This document shows positions 33,026-64,000 of a DNA stretch of 64,000 nucleotides, piece after piece (position 1 is the first letter of the stretch; each line of letters starts with the position of its first letter). The stretch comes from a virus. The notes beneath the pieces are model-generated. The model was given only the letters and a program-made list of their open reading frames with translations, was not told where the DNA came from and did not search any database. The DNA is taken from positions 19,784 to 83,783 of the IMG/VR virus record IMGVR_UViG_3300021962_000066; one strand, 5' to 3'. The position numbers were made by a program, and so were the translations under genes.

Positions 33026-33033
33026 TATTTATT
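33026..33033 (-). promoter_or_regulatory. Late-promoter-like octamer AATAAATA
   Basis: Minus strand, 5 nt before the ATG at 33020, overlapping the last bases of the upstream gene. By T4 geometry transcription would begin at the start codon itself. Confidence 0.55.
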
Positions 33034-34621
33034 ATCCTACGCCCTGTCTAAAAAGAGACTGTAGAGGAGATGTACTATACGATAACGATGTAGTCTTAGG
33101 TGCATTAACTATTGTAGTATTGCCGGGTTTCTGCATAGCACTACAACCTAGCTCAACTAGTAATTTGTTGGTACCGACAAGTAGTTCTATGATCCTTGTA
33201 TTCTGAGTAACAGATGTTTTCTGTAGAGCAAGAGACTCCTTCGATACAAAATTGATCGGTCCATCAGACTTATAACCTAATACATCATCAGTACTATCAA
33301 ACCGCTGTGTAGGCTGACCCGGTCTACTTATAAAGTCATTTGCGGTATCTGTCGGCTGAGGGCTGGGGACAAGCTTTTGATCCTCAAGCTTTTTATCCTT
33401 ACGGGCAGCAAGTATACCCTTCAGACGCTTAATATTTTCATTTGCCTCAGCCTGATCCTCACCACCGTTTTTAGCCTTACGAGCAGCATCTATACCCATC
33501 AGACGCTTCATATTTTTATCTGCCTCATCCTGGTCCTTACCACCGGCCCTCTCTACCCCCAATCTCCCATGAAGAAACTTGGGTATCACGCTTCTCACAA
33601 TACCCTTTGCAAGGTCTTCAAGTGACTCTATAAAGGATATATAGATGTCCCCAATCATTGCTTCGAATTGTAGTTTCTTTTTTTCAAAAGCATTTTTTAT
33701 AGGTTCAACTACATACTCTTTCCATATACACTCAAAAAACGGTGCTACATTGTTCTTCCAAAACTCGACAAGTTCTGGTTTAATATCTGTTTTCCAGGTA
33801 TCCGTTATGGATTTCCAAACGCCTTTAAAAAAACAAACTAAACCACCCCAGATCTTAAGTATATCTGTCTTCCACTCAGGCCAGTTATCCGTTATGGATT
33901 TCCAAACGCCTTTAAAAAAACAAACTAAACCACCCCAGATCTTAAGTATATTTGTCTTCCACTTAGGCCAGTTATCCGCTATGGATTTCCAAACGCCTTT
34001 AAAAAAACAAACTAAACCACCCCAGATCTTAAGTATATTTGTCTTCCACTTAGGCCAGTTATCCGCTATGGATTTCCAAACGCCTTTAAAAAAAAAAACT
34101 GCAGACTTAAAAAACTTTCCGACTACGTCAGGTAGTGTTTTAGTAAGAAATTTGACTATACTTTTCAGTGCAGGTCCGAGGAGAGGGGTAATATACTTGG
34201 TTATAAACCCAGTAACCGTCTTAAACATATCAATTAGAAACGGGAATACCTTATCCTTTATAAAAGGTAAGAGAAACTTTAATAATACTGCGCCAATAGC
34301 AATGCCTCCCAGAATTTTTAAAAGCTTACCAAAGAAACTGCCTCCATCTTCCTTTTTTTCAGCTACCGCTTTATCTGTCTTTGTACTAGAGGCCTTATTG
34401 GAGAGGTCGCTCAAGAATTTTTTACCTTCATTACTGTAGCTCTCTATCCGAACCGATGTTACTTTCTTGACGATTTCGCGCGGCTCTTTTGGCTTTGTCT
34501 CAGCAAATTGCTCTTTACTGTCATCAGATAGTTTTTTCCGCTGAGGCTCCGCTTCAGAGCTAGGCAGCTTTGAAAGGAGCTGTATTACTTTGTCTAACCT
34601 TGCTACTACTGCATCATTCAT
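33032..34621 (-). CDS. Tail tape-measure protein candidate with internal repeats
   Basis: 529 residues from the ATG at 34621 (a GTG lies just before). After a charged N-terminus comes a hydrophobic stretch (GGIAIGAVLLKFLLPFI at about 97-113), then three near-identical 29-residue repeats plus part of a fourth (FFKGVWKSI, NWPKWKT, ILKIWGGLVC). A second pair of about 26-residue repeats (EADKNMKRLMGI and EANENIKRLKGI) follows. Position between the tube-cap-like and gp26-like genes and hydrophobic helical content fit a gp29-type tape measure (T4 gp29 is 590 aa). Function inferred from context. Confidence 0.6.
   Translation of the reverse strand: MNDAVVARLDKVIQLLSKLPSSEAEPQRKKLSDDSKEQFAETKPKEPREIVKKVTSVRIESYSNEGKKFLSDLSNKASSTKTDKAVAEKKEDGGSFFGKLLKILGGIAIGAVLLKFLLPFIKDKVFPFLIDMFKTVTGFITKYITPLLGPALKSIVKFLTKTLPDVVGKFFKSAVFFFKGVWKSIADNWPKWKTNILKIWGGLVCFFKGVWKSIADNWPKWKTNILKIWGGLVCFFKGVWKSITDNWPEWKTDILKIWGGLVCFFKGVWKSITDTWKTDIKPELVEFWKNNVAPFFECIWKEYVVEPIKNAFEKKKLQFEAMIGDIYISFIESLEDLAKGIVRSVIPKFLHGRLGVERAGGKDQDEADKNMKRLMGIDAARKAKNGGEDQAEANENIKRLKGILAARKDKKLEDQKLVPSPQPTDTANDFISRPGQPTQRFDSTDDVLGYKSDGPINFVSKESLALQKTSVTQNTRIIELLVGTNKLLVELGCSAMQKPGNTTIVNAPKTTSLSYSTSPLQSLFRQGVG
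33391..33546 (-). repeat. Two 78-bp imperfect tandem repeats
   Basis: Two copies offset by 78 bp (26 codons) inside the tape-measure candidate. They encode EADKNMKRL and EANENIKRL versions of the same helix and have diverged more than the 87-bp repeats. Confidence 0.7.
33799..34097 (-). repeat. 87-bp tandem repeats (3 full copies plus a partial fourth)
   Basis: Copies begin at 33799, 33886, 33973 and 34060, exactly 87 bp (29 codons) apart, with only a few C/T differences between units. The fourth runs about 38 bp before diverging. The unit encodes a Trp/Lys/Phe-rich helix-like module. The near identity indicates recent expansion by slippage or recombination. Confidence 0.95.
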
Positions 34622-34646
34622 CACTATTATTTAATAGTGACACGGA

Positions 34647-41521: not shown

Positions 41522-42163
41522 TTATATAGAATCAACTTGCTCTATTAAAGAAACAGCAAATTGACTATATTCAAATTCCGCTGTTATATCGATTTCGCTG
41601 CCATCTCTATAAGATAGATCAATTCCTCCTAAAGTACTCGGGAAAGCCCCAGTATAAACGAACTCTGCTACCCTTTTTTCGTATTCGTCTAAAGCGAATA
41701 TTGATATATCAGTCGAGTAGTATTGCAGTTGCTTACTATATGTACCTACATGAACATCGGCACCATTTACCAATTTACTCGGCAAATTAGTTACATCGAC
41801 AATATCATTGCTGTCGTATATTGATTTTTTATCGTCGTTTAATATATCTAACCACTTATATATGAACCAGTAATTATTAAATCTGTTATCAACTGTAAAG
41901 TTAACAGTTAAGGTCGGATACGTTAAACGACTATGGCTTGAAACTTTTACGGATTGTCCTGCATATTTATTATCAATAGAGGGGACTTTAATAGCCGGGG
42001 CTATCACCCCATACACCGACATGGTAAATGTATCAGGGTCTGCATATAAATCATTATGTGCAAATTTACGAATCATTCCTTTAAGCCCTTTAGGGACTGG
42101 TATGACCATTATAAACTTATCCTTACGTACTTTATTGAACGGCGATTGAATATAATCACTCAT
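41522..42163 (-). CDS. Tail tube-like structural protein
   Basis: 213 residues. The segment RLTYPTLTVNFTVDNRFNNYWF with the following WLDILND is the core strand-helix of tail-tube-fold proteins, and the N-terminal VIAPAIKVPSIDNKYAGQS matches their first loop. It lies between terminase and sheath, where T4 has no tube gene. It could be a tail terminator or neck-proximal cap. Its start overlaps the gp17 stop by 8 nt. Confidence 0.6.
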   Translation of the reverse strand: MSDYIQSPFNKVRKDKFIMVIPVPKGLKGMIRKFAHNDLYADPDTFTMSVYGVIAPAIKVPSIDNKYAGQSVKVSSHSRLTYPTLTVNFTVDNRFNNYWFIYKWLDILNDDKKSIYDSNDIVDVTNLPSKLVNGADVHVGTYSKQLQYYSTDISIFALDEYEKRVAEFVYTGAFPSTLGGIDLSYRDGSEIDITAEFEYSQFAVSLIEQVDSI

Positions 42164-44969
42164 AGCGACTATTAGTATTTAATGTTCTCCATCCCGAATC
42201 ATGGGGCTCATCGGGCATTCTCCAACCATCACTGCGTAATTGTTCTATATCTACATCGTATGGTGAGGTATAATTATCACCACTTATGAGTATAGGTAGA
42301 TCCAACTCCGTTTTCGTTTTCAAATTTATTAATGTTTGCGTAGGATCTATAAACTCTCTTATACCGTAATCAAACCGCTTTATTAATAGTGGTCGTTCGT
42401 TTGCATCTTTATCTATTATTTCGAAGTACTTGTCGGCTAATTCATTTTCTAAAATTATGAGTGCCCATATTAAACTCATCACTCTATCATCCCAGCTATC
42501 AGAACCTGCAGCAGCACCCCACGTACCATTAGCACTTCTTACAAAGTTTCTAAGTTCTGTAAGCGTACGAATATCTCGTATCTTAACGGCCCTAAGTTCG
42601 TTTAAATAATATCTCATATTCATAACACCCTTATATTTGGTGTTAGTATGAGCTAATATACCTAGACGGGCATAGACGTTACTCCCAATCTTTGGTCCGT
42701 ATGATACTATGTTTTGATAACTGTGTTGAGCTCTCAGTTGATCTACTACCTGCGAACCGCAGTTGTTTCTCTCTATGCACGCAGGTGGGTTGCCCCAGTT
42801 TTGAAACACCTCTAAACACTTGGCTATAAATTGTATAGGATTAATAGTGTTGTTGTGATATACAGCAACTTGCTCGATATTTTTAAGATCTGTTATATCG
42901 AAAATTTGAATAACTGACGCAGCTTGACCTACGCCTTCGCTTACATCTACTCCTGCAACATAGATTTTATCCTGAGACGGCGGCTCCCACACCAGATAAT
43001 GACCATCATCAAATATAAACGCAGGCTCTTTAATATCCTCTTTAAGCTTCTCGAAAAGTGATTCATCAACTACGCTCTCACCTGTTTTTAGAAATACATT
43101 ACAAAACTCTTGCGAAAATGCTTCTGAACTTCCTAGAGATTTTATAGTATTGGCCTTCCAATCCTCATCTCTACCCGGGACTTCCCACCAATCGACGCGC
43201 TCACCGGTCCAGCCGTTATTATTTTTTTCAGCGCCTTTATATAAATCATAAAATAAATTGTCTGATCCGTTCGGTGTTGATGCTATAAAGATCTTCGACT
43301 TCTGTGAAGACGAAATAATGGGGTATACGGATCGCCAAAACTCAGTTACCATGTGGTTATCGATAAAAGCAAGCTCGTCCAAAATCAAAACATTACACGA
43401 ATCACCACGGCCAGCGTCACTTGATGTAGTTGAGATACCTATACTAGAGCCGTTAGCAAGAGTCATGGAAGTCTTGCCATATTCAATAACACCCGGTTTT
43501 AGGTAGTTAGGTAACTGTTCATACGCCATTCGAATACGCTTAAAGATATTAATTGCAGTTAGCTCTTTATTAGCAACAACAAGAATACGCTGATCTTCCT
43601 GGAAGCATGCTATCCATAAAGCGTATATCGTCATAATTGTAGTATTGTGGGTCGGAATGTATTGATTTCCACATAGATACAGATTACCCGGGCTATCGAC
43701 AGTTATACACCTTACAGGTACGGACTCTACTTTCTTAACGCTTTTAATATAATGCCATTGCGACCTGAGACTGGTGTCATTGATAAATTCTCTGCACTTA
43801 ATTCTGTTCCGCTTGAACGCAAGCTTGCATACATACTCAATCGGCTTGAAGCATAATACACCTGACTCCTTGCATTCAACACCATTGAGTTTAGGAATAT
43901 AGGTTTTATATGTGACCTTATAACCGAGACTCTCTACTAGTTTTTTTGTTTGTAAAACAAGACCTTGATTAGTGTTATAGAAATTCGCATTACCTCTATC
44001 ATCGATATAACCGTCACTATCGATTAATCCTCTGAGTAATTCTAGTCTCTGCTCCCTACTAGCTAATAGGTACTCAGGTGGTATGTGTTTATTACCTAAT
44101 AGGTTAGTACTACGCAGTAGGGTGTTAAGACTATTAGATTTAACCTTTTCTTTTACAGTAATCCTCAAGCTATATACCCCGTCCTTATATTCATGTAGGA
44201 CGAGCTTATCAAACTGCTTACATTGTGTCTTTAGAATATCAATTAAATCATTAACATCTCGCTTACCGACAGTAATCGTTGAAGTATCAGCACAACCATC
44301 TCCTAGCCACATACCTAAGACATACGGATCTATAGGTAAATCTCTATGTTCGCCTGTGACTCCTGATATAACAGTCGGTATCCTATGATTAGGCTCCTCT
44401 CTCTTACCTCCAGCGTTCAGGGTGTCCTTAATTTCGACGGTGCTCCGAACTGAGCCGTCACTACCTGCAATGCGGTCACGTCTTGTTTGTGTAAACCATA
44501 AATGCTCACCGTCAGCCACGATCTTCTCACCGTTATCGAATTCGACTTCATAGCAGTCCCGGTTATGCATTATGTCATGTACCTGGACGACAGCGCAAGG
44601 TCGCCCGTGCATGTCATAAACAATATCACCGTCTTTGAGATCACCCATCGTTCTCCAGCCGGTTGGAGAAGGTATAGGTGTATCGAGCGCTAGAGCTTTA
44701 CCGCTCTGTCTACTCGACAACATAATAACAAACCTATTATCTCTTAAAGTTTTTAGTATTCTTTTTTGATATTTGTGTAACTCAATTAACATCTTACCCT
44801 TATCGAGATTGATAATAAAGAAGAAATTCTCTGCAAAATATAGGATATTGCTCCTACATTTGTTAAGATTCTGTATCCAGTTAGGGTTATCGCTATAATC
44901 GAATTCCGCGTGCTGAGTAGGTAGGTTTTTATTTCCGAGATAAAACTCTTTTTTTACTTCACGTGGCAT
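42156..44969 (-). CDS. 17: Terminase large subunit gp17, interrupted by an intein
   Basis: 937 residues, of which 92-442 are an intein, leaving a 586-residue terminase (T4 gp17 is 610). The ATPase Walker A is SSRQSGK then, after the intein, TT (residues 85-91 plus 443-444). Walker B is VLILDELAFID, and the coupling motif region FIASTPNG follows. The nuclease domain shows VAGVDVSEG and a late acidic motif in DSWDDRV. The protein pumps DNA into the prohead and cuts it. Splicing is needed to restore the P-loop. It heads the gp17-gp19 operon with a late-type octamer 7 nt upstream. Confidence 0.94.
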   Translation of the reverse strand: MPREVKKEFYLGNKNLPTQHAEFDYSDNPNWIQNLNKCRSNILYFAENFFFIINLDKGKMLIELHKYQKRILKTLRDNRFVIMLSSRQSGKALALDTPIPSPTGWRTMGDLKDGDIVYDMHGRPCAVVQVHDIMHNRDCYEVEFDNGEKIVADGEHLWFTQTRRDRIAGSDGSVRSTVEIKDTLNAGGKREEPNHRIPTVISGVTGEHRDLPIDPYVLGMWLGDGCADTSTITVGKRDVNDLIDILKTQCKQFDKLVLHEYKDGVYSLRITVKEKVKSNSLNTLLRSTNLLGNKHIPPEYLLASREQRLELLRGLIDSDGYIDDRGNANFYNTNQGLVLQTKKLVESLGYKVTYKTYIPKLNGVECKESGVLCFKPIEYVCKLAFKRNRIKCREFINDTSLRSQWHYIKSVKKVESVPVRCITVDSPGNLYLCGNQYIPTHNTTIMTIYALWIACFQEDQRILVVANKELTAINIFKRIRMAYEQLPNYLKPGVIEYGKTSMTLANGSSIGISTTSSDAGRGDSCNVLILDELAFIDNHMVTEFWRSVYPIISSSQKSKIFIASTPNGSDNLFYDLYKGAEKNNNGWTGERVDWWEVPGRDEDWKANTIKSLGSSEAFSQEFCNVFLKTGESVVDESLFEKLKEDIKEPAFIFDDGHYLVWEPPSQDKIYVAGVDVSEGVGQAASVIQIFDITDLKNIEQVAVYHNNTINPIQFIAKCLEVFQNWGNPPACIERNNCGSQVVDQLRAQHSYQNIVSYGPKIGSNVYARLGILAHTNTKYKGVMNMRYYLNELRAVKIRDIRTLTELRNFVRSANGTWGAAAGSDSWDDRVMSLIWALIILENELADKYFEIIDKDANERPLLIKRFDYGIREFIDPTQTLINLKTKTELDLPILISGDNYTSPYDVDIEQLRSDGWRMPDEPHDSGWRTLNTNSRYE
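43644..44696 (-). mobile_element. Class 3-type intein with LAGLIDADG endonuclease in gp17
   Basis: Residues 92-442 of gp17 (351 aa), inserted between Lys and Thr of the Walker A motif. It starts with Ala (ALALDTPIPSPTGW) and ends in T-H-N before a Thr. Key residues of class 3 inteins (W-C-T) are present: Trp158 in DGEHLWFT (block B), Cys421 in VRCITVDSP (block F) and Thr440 in PTHN (block G), with no Cys/Ser at position 1. LAGLIDADG motifs are LGMWLGDG (218-225, Asp224) and LRGLIDSDG (312-320, Asp319), so the homing endonuclease looks intact. Confidence 0.93.
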
Positions 44970-50081: not shown

Positions 50082-50336
50082 TTACTTAATCTCCGTACAA
50101 TTCCTTTTAAACTGTAAAATTACCGTTTTATAGACATCGGCAGGTATTACCTCGACAAATTCAATTATACCGTTCTGCCACCCTGATTCGAATTTATCAG
50201 TAGGTATATATCTATTTTTCATTACCGGTATACTTAGAAAAGTATACTGGTAATTTGTTTTTTCTATAAAAATCATTATCTCACCAGCATACCTACCACG
50301 CTTTACCGCAAAAGATTGTCGTAATTGAGGTATCAT
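50082..50336 (-). CDS. Small hypothetical protein (84 aa)
   Basis: The ATG overlaps the rmlA stop (ATGA) and is preceded by AAGGAG at 5 nt, one of few good Shine-Dalgarno sites here. The N-terminus FAVKRGRYAGEIMIFIEK is a KOW/SH3-like beta turn. Coupled to rmlA, unknown function. Confidence 0.6.
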   Translation of the reverse strand: MIPQLRQSFAVKRGRYAGEIMIFIEKTNYQYTFLSIPVMKNRYIPTDKFESGWQNGIIEFVEVIPADVYKTVILQFKRNCTEIK

Positions 50337-51127
50337 TTAAACTCCTTATTTGCAGTAGACCTGGATGGGTCACATACACTGACACCTGTTCTACGCTGCA
50401 TTACCCTCACAAACTCTGCTGCATCTAATAAACTATCTGCAGTCCCGGTATCCAGCCATGCGGTACCGGGGTCAAGTAGCCTAACCTCTAACTTACCCTC
50501 TTTTATATATAGATTGTTTATATCTGTAATTTCGAGTTCACCGCGCGGTGAGGGAGTTAAGGATTTCGCTTTGTTAATACACGAGTTATCGTAAAAATAT
50601 AGCCCCGGTACTGCATACATCGATACAAACTCAGTTGGCTTTTCGACAATACGCTTTACTTTTAGTTTGCTGTCAAACTCTACAACGCCATACTCAGACG
50701 GGTTACCTACCTGGTAGCCAAATATAAGATTCAGACTATCTTTGGATTCATGAATAGATGTTAGCTGATTTTTGAACGCGGTACCATGAAATATATTATC
50801 ACCTAGAGCTAGCACTACATCACTCTTGCCTAGCCATTTTTCAGTAATGATAAACGCCTCTGCGATCCCCCGAGGTGCACTCTGTATGAAGTATGTGAAC
50901 TGTAAGCCCCACTGTGAGCCGTCACCAAGAACTTTCTTAAATCTCTCAGTCTCTCCCTTAGCGACAATTATTGCAATCTCGGTAATACCACAATCTATGA
51001 GAGTAGATATAGGGTAATAAATTAATGGTTTATCATAAACTGGCAAAAGCTGTTTACTAGTTCCTCTAGTTAGAGGATAAAGACGTTTACCTCTGCCGCC
51101 TGCAAGAATAATACCTTTTCTATTCAT
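50333..51127 (-). CDS. rmlA: Glucose-1-phosphate thymidylyltransferase (RmlA family)
   Basis: 264 residues from the ATG at 51127, which overlaps the upstream stop by 8 nt (an in-frame start at 51148 would add seven residues). GIILAGGRGKRLYPLT is the nucleotide-binding signature, with SKQLLPVYDKP and LALGDNIFHG also conserved in RmlA. It makes dTDP-glucose from dTTP and glucose-1-phosphate, the donor for dTDP-rhamnose and other deoxysugars. RmlB and RmlC are not in the window. Confidence 0.9.
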   Translation of the reverse strand: MNRKGIILAGGRGKRLYPLTRGTSKQLLPVYDKPLIYYPISTLIDCGITEIAIIVAKGETERFKKVLGDGSQWGLQFTYFIQSAPRGIAEAFIITEKWLGKSDVVLALGDNIFHGTAFKNQLTSIHESKDSLNLIFGYQVGNPSEYGVVEFDSKLKVKRIVEKPTEFVSMYAVPGLYFYDNSCINKAKSLTPSPRGELEITDINNLYIKEGKLEVRLLDPGTAWLDTGTADSLLDAAEFVRVMQRRTGVSVCDPSRSTANKEFK

Positions 51128-52016
51128 TGCGATAGACACGCTGATCACGTATACAGGCTTGAATTGACCCCATTACTTCAGGTAGCTGAAATCCAATAGA
51201 TCTAATCTTATCCGTACTTATAACAGTATTAGACCTATTAGCTGTCATTTTCAACTCGGTGTCGTCGACAAATAACCACTTACTATCTATACCATATTTC
51301 TTAAAGATTGTTATAATCACCTTATTCGTTACAATACCTTCGTTTACGACGTTATAGATATCAAAGGGCTTTACAAAATAATTATTAGCAATAAATTTAC
51401 CAATAAATACCGTTAAGTCGTGTACACTAGTCATTGAATTCTCATGAGAGATGAGACGAGTATACTTCGCTAATTTAAACAGAGTGTTCCTTACGTTACT
51501 TAGATCGCTACAAAACGGCATTCTAATTCTAAAAATTACACCGTAATCTATAGCCTTTATACTCTCTTCTGCAGCATGCTTAGATTTTGAGTAGAAGCTG
51601 CTCTTATTACTATAGAGCCCGAAGTTAGGTACATCTTCTTCAGTGTAACATTTATCGTAGCTATCGTAAATGCATCCACTAGAAATATGAATAAATTTAC
51701 AGTCTGCACGTTTAGCAGTAAGAGCTAACTTAGCCGGTAATATTGCATTTAAGTTCCAACAATCTGGCTTATTTTCATCTCTCTCGCATGCATCTACGTT
51801 AGGTTTACCGGTATATCCTACGCAATTTATAATCACCACCTCGTCGTGAGACATCTTTAGCTCTGTAAGTCTTTTAAAAAGGTGGTCTTGATCAGTGTAG
51901 TCAAATTTTAACTTATTAACTATTTGTACAGTCTCTATAGAGCAGAGAGTAGATAGGTAACTCTGAAGATGGTTACCGATGTAACCTTTACCAAGAATAA
52001 GACAAGCAATAGACAT
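51120..52016 (-). CDS. RmlD-like dTDP-sugar reductase (SDR)
   Basis: 298 residues. Rossmann motif LGKGYIGNHL near residue 8, SSGCIYDS with the catalytic Ser, and Y142-x3-K146 (FYSKSKHAAE) define an extended SDR. The order RmlD-like then RmlA suggests a deoxysugar step such as reduction of dTDP-4-keto-6-deoxy sugars. Sequence alone does not separate it from other epimerases. Confidence 0.78.
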   Translation of the reverse strand: MSIACLILGKGYIGNHLQSYLSTLCSIETVQIVNKLKFDYTDQDHLFKRLTELKMSHDEVVIINCVGYTGKPNVDACERDENKPDCWNLNAILPAKLALTAKRADCKFIHISSGCIYDSYDKCYTEEDVPNFGLYSNKSSFYSKSKHAAEESIKAIDYGVIFRIRMPFCSDLSNVRNTLFKLAKYTRLISHENSMTSVHDLTVFIGKFIANNYFVKPFDIYNVVNEGIVTNKVIITIFKKYGIDSKWLFVDDTELKMTANRSNTVISTDKIRSIGFQLPEVMGSIQACIRDQRVYRNE

Positions 52017-56600: not shown

Positions 56601-57935
56601 CTAGTCATTAGAGTCCATATCTAACGTTCTAAGTAAATTAATCGATGACTGGCCTAACTCTGTATTATTAGCAGTTTTATCCTCCACGATGGTTAATGTA
56701 CTATAATCAATACGCATTGAATGTGAGCCCGAATTAACCCCAAAACGGTTCTTCATCATACCGAAGCTAATAATATTCTCCTGATTGTCGGGATCTGGTC
56801 TATAGATACTGCATATAACGTCAGCAGTAGCAGCAAGCCCCATGCTCTCTGAAATAGTATTTAGACCTGGCTCGTTTGCATCATAACCCGATCGATTCAA
56901 CTGCGTTGCTGTTATGACCGGGCAGTTAAATTCATACGATAAGGCTCTTAACTGCTCTGTGCAGTATTTTACGCGTTCATAGCTATTATTACCTATCGTT
57001 GAATGTAGAAGATTGACATAATCTATCACTATGGCATCGAGCCTAACCCCCTTAGAGGTTAGCTTCTTTATATATGCCTTTAAATGGTTACCTGTTATGG
57101 TACTCGGAGGAAATTCCTTAATAAGAATCTTACCATTAGGGTTCTTTTGATCGTGGGTACCGATATGCTCCTTGAGCTTATCCATTGATCCTCTTAGGCT
57201 ACTAATAGGTATTTTTGAGAGGTTCGAATATAGTCTTTTTGCATACATGAACTCTGACATTTCGAGAGTAACTATTAGTACGGTCTTATTTTGCTTCGCT
57301 AAAGCTACAGCGGTATTACCAAGCACTATACTCTTACCTACATTAGTTTCACCGGCAAAAACATAAAGAGCTCTACCATCTCTTAAATAACCGCCACTGA
57401 GTCTACCGTCTAGCCACTGCCACCCTGTACTGACACACGGCATATCCTGCTCTATATGTTGCTTGGCGATATTAAAATCTCTAGATAAATCTATACCCAT
57501 TTCCTGCGTTAGGGATATATTACAAGCCTTTTCAAACTTCAACAGAATATCTGACGTATCAACTTTATCATTACCGATATCTTCCACCGTCTCCATCATT
57601 GTTGTGTATACTGCTCGTTCCTTTAGAAATTGTTCGGTATTACTGTATAATTCTTCCGTGTTAAGCTTAGAGCTAATATCGTCAAATAGCTTTACTACTG
57701 CTTTGAAGCTAGTCTTTAATTCAGAAGTAGTGAGATAAGACTTTATCTCTGCTATCGTGGGAGAGGTATTCCTCTTTATATAAAAGCCTGAGATTATACC
57801 AAAGATACTTCTTACATCCTTATTATTAAAGTATTTCGGGTCTACATAATCTACAATTGAAGCCAGGTACGTGCTGTCGGTCAGACTCTTATAGGCTATA
57901 ATAACCTCGAAATAATCAAGATCAAGCTTTAACAT
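56601..57935 (-). CDS. 41: Replicative DNA helicase, gp41-like
   Basis: 444 residues from the ATG at 57935 (a GTG precedes it). Walker A GETNVGKS at about 195-202, then TLEMSEFMYAKRLYSNLS (H1a/H2 region typical of DnaB-like helicases), and VIDYVNLLHS and ITATQLNRSG for Walker B and the sensor. It unwinds the fork with the gp61 primase. Length is close to T4 gp41 (475). Confidence 0.92.
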   Translation of the reverse strand: MLKLDLDYFEVIIAYKSLTDSTYLASIVDYVDPKYFNNKDVRSIFGIISGFYIKRNTSPTIAEIKSYLTTSELKTSFKAVVKLFDDISSKLNTEELYSNTEQFLKERAVYTTMMETVEDIGNDKVDTSDILLKFEKACNISLTQEMGIDLSRDFNIAKQHIEQDMPCVSTGWQWLDGRLSGGYLRDGRALYVFAGETNVGKSIVLGNTAVALAKQNKTVLIVTLEMSEFMYAKRLYSNLSKIPISSLRGSMDKLKEHIGTHDQKNPNGKILIKEFPPSTITGNHLKAYIKKLTSKGVRLDAIVIDYVNLLHSTIGNNSYERVKYCTEQLRALSYEFNCPVITATQLNRSGYDANEPGLNTISESMGLAATADVICSIYRPDPDNQENIISFGMMKNRFGVNSGSHSMRIDYSTLTIVEDKTANNTELGQSSINLLRTLDMDSND

Positions 57936-57944
57936 CACTTAATA

Positions 57945-58613
57945 TTATAGCTGATATTCGCTTAAAAACCTACGTTGATTCTCTACAAATGTTGCGTCAT
58001 TAATGTTACTTAACCCCGGAGATTTATGAACGATATGAATCGGTAATACCCCGCAAACAAGACCTTTTCTAGTTGCATCAAGGGTGGATGATACATCATA
58101 ATGATGAAAAGTATAGTTTTCATTAAACTTCCAACCAGCTTTTAAAGTCTTAGACCGGTTAACAGCTAAGAATACTCCGTCTAATATCGTAACTACCGCA
58201 GGCATAGGACCAAAACTTGTTACTCCTATCTGCATCACATTAGGAATAAAATGAGCAACTGCACCTCTCCAGTTCTCCCTCTTTGTCATTAGATGCCATA
58301 AAGCTGGAGCTTTAATAACAGGATCGAGAGCGCCTGCTACTCCTATAATATCATATTCTTGGAAGCCGTCTTTAATCTTATCGAAAATGTAGGCATCATC
58401 AATGTATACGTCATCGTGCACAAAGACTATACAGTCGTAATTCGTCAGCTCATTAATAGCTCGATTATACACCTGGCTTAGCCCTTGAGTATTCTGTGTG
58501 TAGAAGTGTGCGGAAAATTTTACACCTTTCTCTTTTAGTGATTTAAGACTTTCATATAGTAGAGTTTTTGCGGGATCTGTCTCTCTGGTAACTGATACAA
58601 CGATGGATTTCAT
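57945..58613 (-). CDS. Glycosyltransferase-like protein (GT-A)
   Basis: 222 residues. GLSQVYNRAINELTNYDCIVFVHDDVYIDD contains an acidic H-D-D (66-68) like the donor site of GT2 enzymes, and FNENYTFHHYDVSSTLDATRKG matches the later acceptor helix. It overlaps the amidotransferase gene by 4 nt. An enzyme of LPS/glycan type; substrate unknown. Confidence 0.75.
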   Translation of the reverse strand: MKSIVVSVTRETDPAKTLLYESLKSLKEKGVKFSAHFYTQNTQGLSQVYNRAINELTNYDCIVFVHDDVYIDDAYIFDKIKDGFQEYDIIGVAGALDPVIKAPALWHLMTKRENWRGAVAHFIPNVMQIGVTSFGPMPAVVTILDGVFLAVNRSKTLKAGWKFNENYTFHHYDVSSTLDATRKGLVCGVLPIHIVHKSPGLSNINDATFVENQRRFLSEYQL

Positions 58614-59251
58614 AGAATAAAGAACGGTGAATTATTTTTAAATCTGCCTACCACTTTAAAGTTGTTATCTACGAGTTCTAGCAAGGATCCCTCAGCGACC
58701 TCACTGCAACCCTCAAACACTGAAGAACTGTAGTCATTTTTATTTACATATAAAGTACTACCGCAGCGAGCTAAAAACAATCTATTATACATCTTATTAT
58801 AAAGAGATGTGGTGTGAGTACCTTCGATCTGTGAAAGTACCCTCTTAATACCCTCTACTAGCGTATAATCATTACACTCTATCGACAACATAACAGGTAT
58901 TATAGAGCTGTCAACTACATTTACAGCATTTACTATTAAAGACTTTTGAAGCTTCTTGTAGTTTGTTATAATACCATTATGACAAACTACCCAGTCGTTG
59001 TATATGAACGGGTGCGAAGTATCCTCATTAAATCTCTGCGCTGTCGACGTCGGTGCCTGGGTATGACCGGTAAAGTACGTTATAGATTCGGTATTTTGAC
59101 TAAAATCATATATACCTGGTACCTTAATAATGTCACCTCCACGACTTCGACCAATAAATACCCCACCAAATGCAAAGTCACCTCTATGCATATTGGCCGC
59201 ATACAGAGACTTAAATGTACTCAGCTTACTCGAACCAAATATAGCACACAT
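58610..59251 (-). CDS. Class II glutamine amidotransferase domain protein
   Basis: 213 residues from the internal ATG at 59251, chosen because it puts the catalytic Cys at position 2 (MCAIFGSS). The GATase motifs RGDFAFGGVF, HTQAPTS and CHNGIITNYKKL are present. It is a stand-alone glutaminase domain without a synthase domain. The ammonia acceptor could be a partner enzyme such as the adjacent glycosyltransferase, or a sugar-aminating step. Confidence 0.83.
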   Translation of the reverse strand: MCAIFGSSKLSTFKSLYAANMHRGDFAFGGVFIGRSRGGDIIKVPGIYDFSQNTESITYFTGHTQAPTSTAQRFNEDTSHPFIYNDWVVCHNGIITNYKKLQKSLIVNAVNVVDSSIIPVMLSIECNDYTLVEGIKRVLSQIEGTHTTSLYNKMYNRLFLARCGSTLYVNKNDYSSSVFEGCSEVAEGSLLELVDNNFKVVGRFKNNSPFFIL

Positions 59252-59273
59252 CAGGATAAATATATTGCTAAAG

Positions 59274-59281
59274 CATAAATA
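59274..59281 (+). promoter_or_regulatory. Late-promoter-like octamer CATAAATA
   Basis: Plus strand, 13 nt before the ATG at 59295. Another, GATAAATA, lies at 59255-59262. Confidence 0.45.
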
Positions 59282-59294
59282 TTTCAAGAATAAT

Positions 59295-60218
59295 ATGATT
59301 GATAATAATCTGATATTTGAAACCTATCTTCGCAGTTTAAACGAAGCTACACCGTTTGCGGGGCCTGAGGATGGATTTGGTGCACCGGAAAAAATTCGTC
59401 ATCATAGAGCCCAGAAGGGCACTGTTGATGCTAGTGGGTACAGAATCGGTGATTACTCTCGCGATACCGGCAGAGATATCGTCGAGATTACTGACAATAT
59501 CGTAGTTGCTATAAAAAATGAGATATTTACTCGCGATCCTCGTGTTGTCGGCGGTGTACAGTATCAACTATACTTCGCTGGTACTAAAGACGAATTACAA
59601 GATAGAGTTACAGGTATAATTCATAGGAAACTAGGAGGCAGTAAAGCTGATTCGGGATATGCCGCGAGAATAGTTGTTAACTATATACTTAAACTCGCAG
59701 ACGTCGATAAGGGTAGAGTTGTTACAAAAGATTTTGAAGGCCAGGTTGCAGATGCTGCGCCTGTAATACAAGCTATACAGCAGGTAGTTGACCCGGCTGC
59801 TGTTAATAATCCTGCAGTACCCCGGGCACCAGCTCCGCCTGCTGAGCGAGAGTATACGCATATTTCCGTCACTTCTAAATATAAATTATCGGAAGGCCGG
59901 TCTAGAAATCCGTATGTAAATGAGATGTATGAAATACTGCGTCTAGAAATAGGGGAGGGTGAGGAAGTAACCGGAGCGAAGTTAGTAGAAATACTCGAGA
60001 GCGAAGCGGTATTACAATCTGAAATAAAAGCAGTTCTTTCAGAAATGCTTCAGGCAGGTATGATCGAAAAGATTACAGATAATGCAGATCCCGCGATAAT
60101 TTTAGACCCTGATGACGGTGATGAGGACTATAACTTAGATGCAATGAGTAGAGAGCTCACGAATATGAGACGAAATATTGCGCAAGGCAGAACCGAAGTT
60201 CCTGACACTGACGAATAA
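59295..60218 (+). CDS. Candidate internal head protein with targeting-like N-terminus
   Basis: 307 residues from the ATG at 59295, not from the long upstream frame, because the start NNLIFETYLRSLNEATPF matches the leader pattern of the family (I-F-E and L-N-E, candidate prohead-protease sites). A domain of about 120 residues follows, then a Pro/Ala linker (VPRAPAPPAERE), a helical region with winged-helix flavour (GAKLVEILES...LQAGMIEK) and an acidic tail (DPDDGDEDYN). It is separated from the next gene by 2 nt. Confidence 0.65.
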   Translation: MIDNNLIFETYLRSLNEATPFAGPEDGFGAPEKIRHHRAQKGTVDASGYRIGDYSRDTGRDIVEITDNIVVAIKNEIFTRDPRVVGGVQYQLYFAGTKDELQDRVTGIIHRKLGGSKADSGYAARIVVNYILKLADVDKGRVVTKDFEGQVADAAPVIQAIQQVVDPAAVNNPAVPRAPAPPAEREYTHISVTSKYKLSEGRSRNPYVNEMYEILRLEIGEGEEVTGAKLVEILESEAVLQSEIKAVLSEMLQAGMIEKITDNADPAIILDPDDGDEDYNLDAMSRELTNMRRNIAQGRTEVPDTDE

Positions 60219-60220
60219 TT

Positions 60221-60895
60221 ATGAATAACTACGATTTAGAGCAATTATATATACATAAAATTGCAGGAGCTAAGATAATTTCTGAAGCTAATAACCCTTT
60301 TGGAACTTCCCCCTACGGTGTAGGTTCAAGAATTAAAAGAGCTCTTACTCCCTTCATGAGTAAGACTGCGCAACGATCTGAAGCTAAAAGTCAGCAAGAT
60401 ATTAACGACATGTACAATAAGTTCGTTGCTGAGTTAGCTAAAGTCGGTAAGCGAGAGGGGGACGCAAAATACGGTGACCTAACAGCCTATCTTAGTAAGC
60501 TTAATGGGATTAACGCTAGCGCTACGACTTCTACAACCTGGGATCAACTAAATGTAAATCCTACACAAACATTTAAAACGTTTGGTGCACTTAGCCTAGG
60601 TAACGCCTTTAAGAAAGTTGTAGAAGAGGTTAATCAATCAAGTCTCACAGCACCTACTCCGCCTGCTGCACCTGCTGCACCTGCTGCACCTGGACCTACT
60701 CCGCCTGGACCTACTCCGCCTGGACCTAGGCGCCGTCAGGCTGCGAGGAAGAAGACAATAGATATTACTAAAGCAAACTTCTTAAATCTCCTGCTTGCTA
60801 GAGGTTATAGAAACCCGGTAGAGCGGGGCCAAATAGTCGATATGCTTGAATCGCCAGAGGTTGGCGTTAGATTTAAGATACCTCCTACCCCTTGA
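60221..60895 (+). CDS. Candidate internal head protein with Pro/Ala repeat linker
   Basis: 224 residues. The leader DLEQLYIHKIAGAKIISEANNP ends in E-A like its relatives. A helical domain follows, then a Pro-Ala-Gly repeat (TPPAAPAAPAAP, GPTPPGPTPPG), a basic patch (RRRQAARKK) and a C-terminal helix module (NFLNLLLARGYRNPVERGQIVDML). Layout and strand match the gene before it. Overlaps queC by 11 nt at the 3' ends. Confidence 0.62.
   Translation: MNNYDLEQLYIHKIAGAKIISEANNPFGTSPYGVGSRIKRALTPFMSKTAQRSEAKSQQDINDMYNKFVAELAKVGKREGDAKYGDLTAYLSKLNGINASATTSTTWDQLNVNPTQTFKTFGALSLGNAFKKVVEEVNQSSLTAPTPPAAPAAPAAPGPTPPGPTPPGPRRRQAARKKTIDITKANFLNLLLARGYRNPVERGQIVDMLESPEVGVRFKIPPTP
60652..60727 (+). repeat. 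Short tandem repeats encoding Pro/Ala linker
   Basis: CTGCTGCAC-type 9-mers (three copies) followed by 15-mers containing CCTGGACCTACTCCG (two copies and a part). They encode the linker of the protein above and are prone to length change. Confidence 0.8.
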
Positions 60896-61583
60896 CCATA
60901 AGCGCATCCCACGGGATATGCTTAACATATGGGATAGGATCTTGAATTTTAGCATCAATAAAACCCTTCAAACGTAAAGAGCAAGCCGGGCAGGTACCGC
61001 ATGACAGCTCCGCTCCTTCATAGCAGGTCCAAGTCTTTTCAAACGGTACACCGAGTTCCGTACCCCACCTAATAATATCAGCCTTACTCTTTTCAATGAG
61101 AGGTGCTTCAATTTTAATTTTAGAACGACGATTTAATATCGTAACTTCATTGATAGAGTTGAGAAATTCCGCGCTGCCGTCCCAGTAGCCCGCAACAGAG
61201 TCTGCTTGTGCAGCGCCATACTGAACACTTGTGGCATCAATGCTCTCTGCTGCTGCACAAGCAATTGAGAGGACCATCATGTTTCTGAAAGGAACATAAT
61301 TTACGGTCTGAGGGTCTCCCATTACATCACGAGCCTTTGCAACAGCGATATCGGGATTAGTTAATGCGGATTTACTTGCTATATCTTTGAAGAATGATAC
61401 ATCAATAATCCTATGAATTACATTAGTATGTAATTTTGCAATCTCTGTAGCACATGCTAACTCCTTATTATGTCGCTGACCGTAAAAAAACGATAAAGCG
61501 AGTACCTGATCAAACGTACGGATAGCACTGTAGAGTAGTACAGTGCTATCCATTCCGCCTGAGAAGCAAACAACACTTTTCAC
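60885..61583 (-). CDS. queC: 7-cyano-7-deazaguanine synthase QueC
   Basis: 232 residues, GTG start that overlaps the upstream stop (GTGA). PP-loop SGGMDST at 8-14, typical FFYGQRHNKEL, and a Zn site with Cys187, 195, 198 and 201 in CYEGAELSCGTCPAC. QueC converts carboxydeazaguanine to preQ0. In phages preQ0 is used for deazaguanine DNA modification that blocks restriction, or for tRNA queuosine. No DpdA/Tgt is in the window. Confidence 0.92.
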   Translation of the reverse strand: MKSVVCFSGGMDSTVLLYSAIRTFDQVLALSFFYGQRHNKELACATEIAKLHTNVIHRIIDVSFFKDIASKSALTNPDIAVAKARDVMGDPQTVNYVPFRNMMVLSIACAAAESIDATSVQYGAAQADSVAGYWDGSAEFLNSINEVTILNRRSKIKIEAPLIEKSKADIIRWGTELGVPFEKTWTCYEGAELSCGTCPACSLRLKGFIDAKIQDPIPYVKHIPWDALMVKG

Positions 61584-61759
61584 GGCTTAGCAATCTCGTG
61601 AGTAAGCTTGCTAAACATCTCCCAGATAAATCTCTTAACTTCGGCTTCACCTTTAGTCTTAACTAGAGTATTAAGGGATTCAAGCGGCACCTTAGTTTTG
61701 AGAAGAGTCTTACCGTCGGTGTCTGCTACAATTGACATTTCTAATGATACTTTGTTCAT
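61580..61759 (-). CDS. Small hypothetical protein (59 aa) coupled to queC
   Basis: ATG at 61759, 59 residues, ending in a TGA that overlaps the queC GTG. Two small elements: a beta hairpin (VSLEMSIVADTDGKTLLKTKVPLESL) and a helix (EAEVKRFIWEMFSKLTHEI). Tight coupling and codon pattern support a real gene. Function unknown. Confidence 0.6.
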   Translation of the reverse strand: MNKVSLEMSIVADTDGKTLLKTKVPLESLNTLVKTKGEAEVKRFIWEMFSKLTHEIAKP

Positions 61760-61780: not shown

Positions 61781-62911
61781 TTATGCATTATCAACTATTG
61801 ACTTAAGATTAGATGTACCAGCAATATCCTCACTTTCATCAGGCATAACTTCCTCGACAGCACTACCATAAGCCCACTTCTCGCCAATAGCTTTCTCAAT
61901 ACCAGGTAAAATTTGCTTCCAGATATCTTCATTCTTACGCCAATTTTTATAGAATCCTATCTTCTCACCGTTAGCCAAGGTATATGTAGACCCTGTTTGA
62001 ATTACGATTCCAAAGCCTACAGCGAGATCCAATAAGCCATAGTGCTTATCGAGACCTGACCTAAAACTAAGATACATTTCTGTTTGAAGGTATTGTTGAA
62101 TAAATCTGTTTTTTACCGTAAGAGCTCGTAGAATTACACCCGGGTAATTCCGCTGACCAACAGTTAGCTCACCGTCCGTAGTCTTGCCCTCGTCAGTCTT
62201 TTCCGGTTTACGTGCAAGCTGCACTGTCACTGACGGCAGGTAAGTTACGCTCTTACCTCCAGGTTGAATCTTAATAATAGATTCATACATTGCACTAGGA
62301 TCATCGTAGGTATGATTGGTACAGATAAATGTTGTTTGAGTATAGGCTGCAAGCTGAGTACAGGTACGTAAAAGAGATTTAATCGACCGTGCGCGGGTAC
62401 CCATATCCATGGACGTACTCTCCTTCTCCATTCGATTAAAACTAAGTTCATTCTCTAAATTGCCGAGAGAGTCAATAGCTACAATAAACTTGCCTGTTAT
62501 TCCTACTTCCTTAGCCTTGGTTAAGAACTTATAGATAGAATTTCTCGTTTGTTCAATACTAAAACACGGTACATACTTTACTTTGGAAGTATCTAGGCCA
62601 AGATTCTGCGCAGATTCTTTATCAATAGCATTCTCTGTATCAAAAATTACAACTGTATAACCGAGTTTTTGCGCATTGGCGAGAGTTCGCATAACGATAT
62701 ACGTCTTACCGGTCATCGACTCACCACATATCATAGTAAGACGGTTCTTAGGAATTCCGCCGTATAGAGAGCCGCTAATAATTGCGTTGAGTGGCATTGA
62801 TCCGGTATCAATCCACTCGTTAACTGTCGAGAGTGTACTCTTATCAAGAAACGTAGCGTAAGGGCTAATAGTATCAATTTCTGCTAGAACTTTTTGAATG
62901 TCTTTATCCAT
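61781..62911 (-). CDS. uvsX: RecA-like recombinase UvsX
   Basis: 376 residues (T4 UvsX is 391). Walker A GESMTGKT at 63-70, Walker B FIVAIDSLGNL, and TFICTNHTYDDPS and KIQPGGKSVTYLPS loops are characteristic of T4-type UvsX. The C-terminus is acidic. It promotes strand exchange in recombination-dependent replication and repair, working on gp32-coated DNA. Confidence 0.92.
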   Translation of the reverse strand: MDKDIQKVLAEIDTISPYATFLDKSTLSTVNEWIDTGSMPLNAIISGSLYGGIPKNRLTMICGESMTGKTYIVMRTLANAQKLGYTVVIFDTENAIDKESAQNLGLDTSKVKYVPCFSIEQTRNSIYKFLTKAKEVGITGKFIVAIDSLGNLENELSFNRMEKESTSMDMGTRARSIKSLLRTCTQLAAYTQTTFICTNHTYDDPSAMYESIIKIQPGGKSVTYLPSVTVQLARKPEKTDEGKTTDGELTVGQRNYPGVILRALTVKNRFIQQYLQTEMYLSFRSGLDKHYGLLDLAVGFGIVIQTGSTYTLANGEKIGFYKNWRKNEDIWKQILPGIEKAIGEKWAYGSAVEEVMPDESEDIAGTSNLKSIVDNA

Positions 62912-63423: not shown

Positions 63424-64000
63424 ATGTCTAGTCAATATAAAGGTAATGATACAAGGTGTTTAACTGAGGCGTACTCTCAGGTTAGAGAAGGCGCTTGGGA
63501 TCGACTAAAGGCACGGGGATCACAAGCTCTCGGAGCACTTGGAGGACTCGGTGACCGAGCTGCAGGTACTGTTCGCGGTGCAATGGCTGGCGCTACAGGC
63601 AATGTAGCCGGCGTTAACGCCGCGACACAACAAAGAGCTGCGGGCGCCACGGCGGGTGATATCGCAAAATTACAGTCATATCGACAATCAGTTGCTGCCA
63701 AGGTTAAATCTTTGCGTAATGAAATTGACTCAGACTTGAAGGGGCTGGGTATAAATGCTTCAATAGATACTGCCCAGCTTACTAACGGACTTGATTCAAT
63801 TGATACCGGATTTAAAACAGCTATTAATAAGTTAGCTACACCAGCACCTGTCGCTAACCCGTTTGCAGCTAAACCGCCTACTGAGCCTACAACTGCAACC
63901 GCACCTGCAACTGCACCTGCAACTGCACCTGCAACTGCACCTGCAACTGCACCTGCAACTGCACCTGCACCTGCAACTGCAACTGCACCTGCACCTGCAA
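63424..64000 (+). CDS. Candidate internal head protein, cut by window end
   Basis: At least 192 residues, open at the right edge. The leader NDTRCLTEAYSQVREG has the L-x-E-A-Y...E-G pattern of the pair at 36237 and 36942. Next is a Gly/Ala-rich amphipathic region (ALGALGGLGDRAAGTVRGAMAG), a helix pair, and a long Ala-Thr-Ala-Pro repeat (positions 63892 on). The full gene is not visible, so length and function stay open. Confidence 0.6.
   Translation, partial: MSSQYKGNDTRCLTEAYSQVREGAWDRLKARGSQALGALGGLGDRAAGTVRGAMAGATGNVAGVNAATQQRAAGATAGDIAKLQSYRQSVAAKVKSLRNEIDSDLKGLGINASIDTAQLTNGLDSIDTGFKTAINKLATPAPVANPFAAKPPTEPTTATAPATAPATAPATAPATAPATAPAPATATAPAPA
63892..64000 (+). repeat. 12-bp tandem repeats (GCACCTGCAACT) encoding ATAP
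   Basis: About five near-perfect GCACCTGCAACT units then variants with extra GCACCT or GCAACT hexamers, continuing to the edge of the window. They encode Thr-Ala-Pro-Ala repeats, in frame with the gene, and are not a CRISPR array. Confidence 0.9.

Follow-up and report, generated by a model that had tools for sequence, protein, structure and literature searches.

What does a phage do with queC, and which neighboring genes serve the enzyme that it encodes? We asked this of a 64,000-nucleotide stretch of the IMG/VR record IMGVR_UViG_3300021962_000066 (hereafter, the window), which runs from base 19,784 to the end of a linear 83,783-base contig and carries, on the minus strand at 60885-61583, a gene for QueC, the 7-cyano-7-deazaguanine (preQ0) synthase. 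A reading of the sequence alone (the original prediction) had proposed that this QueC supplies preQ0 for the replacement of guanine in DNA and that a 59-residue protein encoded beside it may be a helper. We conclude, with a probability of roughly 0.8, that the queC of the window belongs to a post-replicative 7-deazaguanine DNA modification pathway of a T4-like phage, and that phages of this family very probably carry a guanine substitute in their own DNA. The predicted role of the window QueC as the preQ0 source is supported by relatives that encode FolE, QueD, QueE, and a protein with the fold of the DNA transglycosylase DpdA.

Judged by its genes, the record is a fragment of a T4-like phage. 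It is a linear virus contig without end repeats, a type that is often a fragment; UvsX, gp32, and a T4-type terminase are encoded in the window, and gp23 and prohead protease in its relatives. The contig breaks inside a 12-base tandem repeat (63893-63999, 8.9 copies) about 1 kb beyond uvsX, and the repeat is probably what stopped the assembly. The window contains no tRNA genes. Relatives were taken from IMG/VR as the best 80 of 187 QueC loci (53-77% identity). In the counts given below for the queC block and for the neighbors of the family phrog_19058, loci short of flank are excluded from the denominators; near-identical copies (L004/L005 among them) are retained in the locus counts.

QueC and the replication block around it

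The queC gene is intact and, on its sequence, canonical. The 232-residue product, read from a GTG start, matches Pfam PF06508 (E 8.8e-62) and phrog_1550 (E 4.5e-63), and it scores above the cut-off of the TIGR00364 equivalog of NCBIfam (187.2 bits against 150.3) and below that of a second QueC model, NF008317 (127.8 against 378). The SGGMDS, YGQRHNKE, and VPFRN motifs are present, as is CYEG..C..C..C, the four-cysteine zinc motif (CYEGAELSCGTCPAC); motif names follow PMC13329287. Against NF041925, the model for the QueC-like defense protein QatC (Qat/CBASS), the protein reached 15.6 bits, short of the cut-off of 280.

Clustering of open reading frames (ORFs) at the queC loci gave a fixed order: uvsX, queC, a class II glutamine amidotransferase (GATase), a PF13712 glycosyltransferase, and a DnaB helicase, all on the minus strand in the window. 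The block opens with a UvsX-like recombinase (61781-62911; phrog_97, 2.4e-59; PF00154, 4.1e-18), which lies upstream of queC in 56 of the 57 loci with more than 1.9 kb of upstream sequence, L077 being the exception. The GATase gene (58610-59251; PF13522, 1.8e-7) follows queC in 57 of the 58 loci that extend 3.3 kb or more downstream, and the single locus without it, L076, also lacks the glycosyltransferase and the helicase. The GT-A-like glycosyltransferase (57945-58613; PF13712, 4.5e-10, with an HDDV motif) is found in 50 of 51 loci with enough flank, and its four-base overlap with the GATase gene is kept in 66 of 70; the window protein had no PHROG match and no PDB sequence match of note. 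The DnaB-family replicative helicase (56601-57938; PF03796, 2.7e-30) closes the block in 38 of 39 loci with enough flank.

An MCAIFG start, GHTQAPT, and HNG are the marks of an N-terminal-cysteine glutaminase, and the window GATase has all three, its MCAIFG start lying inside a longer ORF that ends at 59287. Among the 75 ORFs of the family as called, some of them cut or mis-started, HNG is present in 73 and MC(G/A/S)I in 62. The GATase gene starts within 60 bases of the end of the QueC match in 24 of 74 loci. The window protein matches phrog_13807 (4.1e-10), which is also matched by the Gat half of the Gat-QueC protein of phage 9g, and phrog_12378 (1.1e-8), which is also matched by KVP40.0125. 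As a query, it recovered a single IMG/VR locus (a sibling at 99%) and, among phages, nine records of which several are GlmS; our view of the family therefore comes through queC loci and profiles. On these sequence features, we conclude that the GATase is probably a separate ammonia supplier for QueC.

The same three enzymes could instead amidate a surface sugar, as WbpG-like proteins do: one branch of the QueC superfamily holds N-sugar amidotransferases, according to PMC13329287, and a glycosyltransferase is the next gene here. Set against this are the score above the QueC equivalog cut-off, the canonical zinc motif, and the framing of the block by uvsX and the DnaB helicase, and we regard such a role as very improbable indeed. 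The framing recalls T4, in which the order gene 42 - b-gt - uvsX - 40 - 41 places DNA modification genes, one of them for a glycosyltransferase, beside uvsX and the helicase. Because T4 keeps its modification genes beside uvsX and 41, DNA modification genes are already known from this block; the likeness is positional only, as T4 modifies cytosine and the genes here are queC, the GATase, and the PF13712 glycosyltransferase.

Two ORFs on the opposite (plus) strand, at 59130-60218 and 60221-60895, split queC from the GATase gene in the window. The first had no PHROG match and the second only a weak match to a PHROG of unknown function; the pair is probably an insert that lies outside the pathway. 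A relative of the first occurs in 6 of 11 records compared (own record and sibling included), and the second encodes a Pro/Ala-rich repeat; an ORF rich in repeats where the window ends (63400) looks similar in make-up. Overlapping genes on the minus strand (50333-52016), some 6-8 kb from the glycosyltransferase gene, encode a nucleotidyl transferase and an RmlD-like reductase, a possible sugar-nucleotide source; the RmlD-like family is likewise in 6 of 11 records, counted in the same way.

A DpdA-type fold and the remaining pathway genes

Guanine replacement needs a transglycosylase, and the original prediction had remarked that DpdA is not in the window. This holds for the whole record, in which searches for PF01702, phrog_10773 (DpdA2), and phrog_19058 were all empty. 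A search for dpdA, queD, queE, and folE in the rest of the genome had been suggested as well; it found none of them in the record itself, and relatives encode FolE, QueD, QueE, and a DpdA-fold protein outside the span that the record covers. PF01702 had no match in 24 relatives, and phrog_10773 was found, among 29 records, in KVP40 and pf16 only. These empty searches had suggested a route independent of DpdA, an idea overturned by the predicted fold of phrog_19058. PhoH-like, AAA-kinase-like, glycosyltransferase-like, and tail-like proteins near queD and queE were also considered as DpdA and dropped on sequence or Pfam evidence.

The family phrog_19058 occurs in 8 of the 24 relatives (in G014 as a partial gene at the contig edge). 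Ten records bear gp23, and those of them without phrog_19058, G009 and G018, have contigs that end less than 300 bases past gp23; all eight relatives with a contig running past gp23 carry the gene (one partial). An AlphaFold model built from 36 phrog_19058 sequences had a predicted local distance difference test score (pLDDT) of 94 and a predicted template modeling score (pTM) of 0.91. Compared with the PDB by Foldseek, it matched tRNA-guanine transglycosylases (TGTs) at ranks 1-25 (from 4e-8) and the preQ0 insertase DpdA (7ui4) at rank 26 (5.3e-5), and VIA-align gave Z scores of 18.1 for archaeosine TGT and 17.5 for DpdA, with a range of 17.4-18.1 over 229-239 residues among the matches listed. 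D55 and D215 are invariant across the 36 sequences. Viral models near this fold include a protein of Cellulophaga phage phiST (4.6e-16) and a 464-residue protein of phage nt-1, which has the length of the nt-1 DpdA2 gene named in PMC6884629. By sequence, the nearest relatives are in 14 Campylobacter phage records (44-45% identity) and in four records of Flavobacterium phage immuto (44%), where the protein is annotated as a DNA guanine transglycosylase. On the predicted model, the phrog_19058 protein is DpdA-type by fold.

The other enzymes are also encoded by relatives. FolE, QueD, QueE, and QueC, of which the window's own fragment has QueC alone, occur together in six (G002, G004, G006, G009, G012, and G022); FolE was found in 18 and QueD in 17 of the 24 related records, and queE in six of the seven folE-bearing relatives read, the seventh, G005, ending before that point. 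In G022, which carries the 59-residue gene, the distances from queC are about 14 kb for folE, 18 kb for queD, and 21 kb for queE, all toward uvsX, the side on which the record of the window is cut off. A second cluster, adjacent to gp23 and about 50 kb from queC in G002, G004, and G006, encodes the phrog_19058 protein (about 270 residues), a formyltransferase (PF00551), a small protein, a kinase, and QueF; the operon recurs in G012, and in G006 it is on the opposite side of queC from that in G004. Where phrog_19058 loci had 4.5 kb of downstream sequence (n = 63, from the 80 closest of at least 528), queF was present in every case and the formyltransferase in 52; in five of the eleven loci without the latter that we viewed, there was no obvious replacement between the DpdA-like gene and queF. 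The thymidylate-kinase-like gene is downstream of phrog_19058 in 75 of 80 loci. At another locus (L201, 1-267), the DpdA-like gene is preceded, at a distance of about 1.2 kb, by a C-terminal piece of QueC that lacks three of the four zinc cysteines and is perhaps a decayed or altered QueC.

The second cluster bears on the identity of the base. QueF retains ESKSxKLY in 74 of 74 full-length copies; its C..T..PD site is regular in 56 and deviates in 18, with G004 and G006 reading CRHTKQKD. Conservation of ESKSxKLY and the adjoining formyltransferase point to preQ1 derivatives, whereas joint action of the GATase and QueC could yield archaeosine (G+), the product of fused Gat-QueC, and the DNA base would then be 2′-deoxyarchaeosine (dG+) and neither preQ1 nor formylated preQ1. 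One PHROG is matched by both the window GATase and the Gat half of 9g Gat-QueC, and 9g is described as containing dG+ in its DNA; phrog_12378 was matched in one of 14 control genomes, that of Sulfolobus acidocaldarius; and nt-1, whose GATase gene is directly behind queC, has traces of dG+ according to PMC6884629, although these amount to about 0.02% of G and are credited by the authors to an ArcS homologue. We consider dG+ a real but minority possibility.

If the pathway did not lead to DNA at all, preQ0 might raise queuosine in host tRNA and leave the phage's own DNA unmodified. Hutinet 2019 (PMC6884629) raises such boosting for phages that bear the pathway without DpdA, and the record of the window has no DpdA. 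The DpdA-fold gene of the relatives that extend past gp23, its invariable tie to queF, and the absence of a PF01702 TGT from the 24 relatives speak for modification of the phage's own DNA instead, and we judge a queuosine booster improbable. The fold of the transglycosylase is compatible with a related alternative, in which this enzyme may act on tRNA and not on DNA.

Known systems show both likenesses and differences. DpdA phage systems, as described by Hutinet 2019 (PMC6884629), are alike in having FolE, QueD, QueE, QueC, and a TGT-fold transglycosylase within one phage family. Here, however, the genes are in distant clusters, queC stands in a replication block behind uvsX, and the DpdA-like protein of about 270 residues is missed by both PF01702 and the DpdA2 PHROG. 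The Campylobacter firehammerviruses CP220 and CPt10 have a protein of the phrog_19058 family (44-45% identity). In CPt10, which has QueC and QueD, the hypothetical gp055 (L234, 5007-6367) is kin to the DpdA-like family and the next gene is thymidylate-kinase-like, an arrangement shared with the IMG/VR phages; CPt10 differs in having no GATase of this family and no Gpt-like gene. Campylobacter phages reportedly carry 2′-deoxy-7-amido-7-deazaguanosine (dADG) at 100%. They are described as highly modified with dADG in PMC6884629. Flavobacterium phage immuto has queD, queE, a phosphoribosyltransferase gene, folE, the DpdA-annotated phrog_19058 gene, the formyltransferase, the kinase, and queF in one stretch, but its QueC is about 11 kb away and it has no GATase of this family.

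The DpdA2-type phages KVP40, nt-1, and pf16 resemble the window in having a related GATase directly behind QueC (KVP40.0125, a 90% match in nt-1, and pf16_77 as a 36% match), and KVP40 and pf16 have a QueF-like gene. They differ in that their transglycosylase is of the phrog_10773/DpdA2 kind (a 62% match in nt-1) and not phrog_19058, and in that queC is not beside uvsX; in pf16, the GATase is followed by a MazG/PRA-PH-like gene, in the window by the glycosyltransferase. The link between the window GATase and KVP40 was seen by profile methods only, KVP40 being absent from the tblastn matches in the phage collection. Phage 9g shares a class II amidotransferase domain and QueC with the window, fused in 9g and encoded by separate genes here. 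In 2023, Cui and co-workers reportedly described DpdA3, by which all guanines are replaced, and DpdN, which formylates preQ1; the phrog_19058 gene and the formyltransferase are probably these two.

In a reverse check, eight of the 80 closest phrog_19058 loci were in contigs of at least 128 kb, namely G004 and seven new records, and QueC, the GATase, uvsX before queC, and the glycosyltransferase after the GATase were each found in seven of the seven. The query was derived from queC-bearing relatives, so that the check was not fully blind, and this is the first of several points that weigh against our reading. The record itself, besides lacking the three transglycosylase families, yielded no FolE, QueD, QueE, or QueF; that this phage carries the missing genes is something we infer from relatives with QueC 53-77% identical. 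The relatives with the 59-residue gene have contigs that stop short of the gp23 side, and none is shown with a DpdA-like gene. In the Foldseek list, unrelated TIM barrels follow the TGTs from 6.7e-5. The phrog_19058 proteins had no match to PF01702 and a weak one to DUF6610 only, and hhalign with four of them (very thin alignments) against 9g DpdA and the DpdA2 of KVP40 and pf16 gave 1.7% and 8.1% probability, no usable match; exchange of guanine in DNA by phrog_19058 is an activity predicted from a model. Within QueC, the YPDC motif reads YWDG, with Tyr and Asp retained; among 80 relatives, the position is YWDG in 69, FWDG in nine, and FYDG in two, and KVP40 QueC has YWDC. Finally, some phages with this transglycosylase do without the GATase, as CPt10 and immuto show.

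Proposed guanine salvage and the 59-residue gene

At the other end of the window, a plus-strand gene (2048-2503) encodes a Gpt-like purine phosphoribosyltransferase (PF00156, 9.6e-17). It resembles archaeal and Escherichia coli-type guanine/xanthine enzymes, and in the PDB it matched the purine phosphoribosyltransferase 1vdm (3.9e-16) and the xanthine-guanine enzyme 1a95 (1.6e-9). When 37 records were tested, PF00156 was present in 13 of the 15 IMG/VR records with phrog_19058, the misses being G010 and G014, where phrog_19058 lies within 1.2 kb of a contig end; G000 and G003 have the Gpt-like gene without phrog_19058 in their fragments. A PF00156 phosphoribosyltransferase is absent from CPt10, KVP40, and 9g, and the match in pf16 is weak, in a 291-residue frame. 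By tblastn, the window protein matched 16 of 50,697 phage records, and nine of the 16 were among the 25 with a phrog_19058 match, although these nine represent two phage groups only, and a chance estimate for the overlap, which overlooks this grouping, is given no weight.

In TGT chemistry, one guanine is released for each base exchanged, and because of this one-for-one release, salvage is a simple explanation of the Gpt-like gene. The original prediction had the enzyme handling a modified purine; the gene is real, but its resemblance to guanine and xanthine enzymes and its tracking of the DpdA-like gene suggest that it salvages the plain guanine displaced from DNA. Were its substrate modified after all, the Gpt-like and thymidylate-kinase-like enzymes could make a 7-deazaguanine deoxynucleoside triphosphate for a polymerase to incorporate. 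The company that both genes keep with the DpdA-like gene (13 of 15 records and 75 of 80 loci) speaks for such a route, but the DpdA-fold protein would then be redundant, the likeness of the phosphoribosyltransferase to guanine/xanthine enzymes is against it, and in CPt10 the DpdA-like gene and the kinase occur with no phosphoribosyltransferase. We think this route improbable too, if a shade less so than the queuosine booster, and prefer exchange at the level of DNA followed by salvage of guanine.

The 59-residue gene (61580-61759, minus strand, ATG start) lies between uvsX and queC, and the junction described in the original prediction is confirmed: it shares the four bases GTGA with an intact queC. 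Homologues at the identical spot, the interval between uvsX and queC, were found in L003, L004/L005, L007, and L016 (36-58% identical to the window copy), and a weak one in L009 (24% identity; E 0.56 by a model omitting L009, against 7e-15 for L016). Non-synonymous proportions among the four closest copies are 0.29-0.38, and synonymous ones 0.65-0.98. Because homologues occupy the same place and substitutions fall mainly at synonymous sites, the 59-codon ORF is, by its sequence record, more than chance, a real gene under purifying selection. The window, L003, L004/L005, and L007 retain an overlap with queC (GTGA, ATGA, or TAATG), which L009 and L016 lack. AlphaFold predicts a beta-beta-alpha-alpha protein (pLDDT 91.7, pTM 0.67). 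No family was found for it in Pfam or PHROG, no convincing match among PDB folds (best E 0.96), and no relative in the phage collection; a single-sequence search of IMG/VR gave 23 pattern hits, none confirmed, and nine further records had no copy near QueC.

A helper role for this protein, as originally suggested, is one we did not adopt. The small gene is present in just six of the 76 loci showing both uvsX and queC, and in 67 of the 76 the gap from uvsX to QueC, taken up to where the QueC match rather than the gene begins, is at most 60 bases. Since queC stands without the small gene in most loci, it has no general need of it, and the QueC partner with the best evidence is the GATase. Our best guess, held loosely, is that the 59-residue protein is a clade-specific accessory of the uvsX-queC segment; that it acts on QueC we consider unlikely, if hardly far-fetched.

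Two further features of the window were noted. The terminase large subunit (42156-44969, minus strand) has 937 residues against 480-636 in the relatives compared and contains a LAGLIDADG/Hom_end domain, apparently as part of an intein in the Walker A motif (SSRQSGK...THN-TT) with Ala as its first residue. An ORF at 33032-34624 contains tandem repeats, of 78 bases at 33390-33545 and of 87 bases at 33794-34100.

Proposed pathway and its meaning

From gene content, order, conservation, motifs, and predicted folds we infer every enzymatic step that follows and the identity of the final base. FolE, QueD, and QueE, encoded in relatives beyond the uvsX side, would convert GTP to 7-carboxy-7-deazaguanine, from which QueC would make preQ0 with ammonia that probably comes from the separate downstream GATase; in relatives that carry queF, QueF would convert preQ0 to preQ1. 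The small DpdA-fold transglycosylase (phrog_19058) would then act on replicated phage DNA and exchange guanine for this base, the formyltransferase may complete the side chain, and the displaced guanine would be returned to GMP, probably by the Gpt-like enzyme. A more sweeping version, in which a preQ1- or G+-type base replaces DNA guanine wholesale and is then sugared by the coupled glycosyltransferase, while the Gpt-like enzyme and the kinase recycle guanine to GTP for FolE, would make the block the guanine counterpart of the T4 gene 42-b-gt block; we consider it quite unlikely. We know of no sugar-decorated 7-deazaguanine in DNA and of no guanine-recycling loop in a phage, although no literature search was made for either.

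A system of this kind is already known. New here are the position in the replication block, the split GATase, the coupled glycosyltransferase, the link to guanine salvage, and the clade-specific small protein. Together, these findings place an uncultured group of T4-like phages among the likely carriers of 7-deazaguanine DNA and offer a fold-based function for phrog_19058, a PHROG of unknown function of which some members are already annotated as DpdA. They also show that the amidotransferase partner of QueC is often a separate gene, and they give a testable reason for the presence of a guanine-salvage enzyme matched in few sequenced phages.

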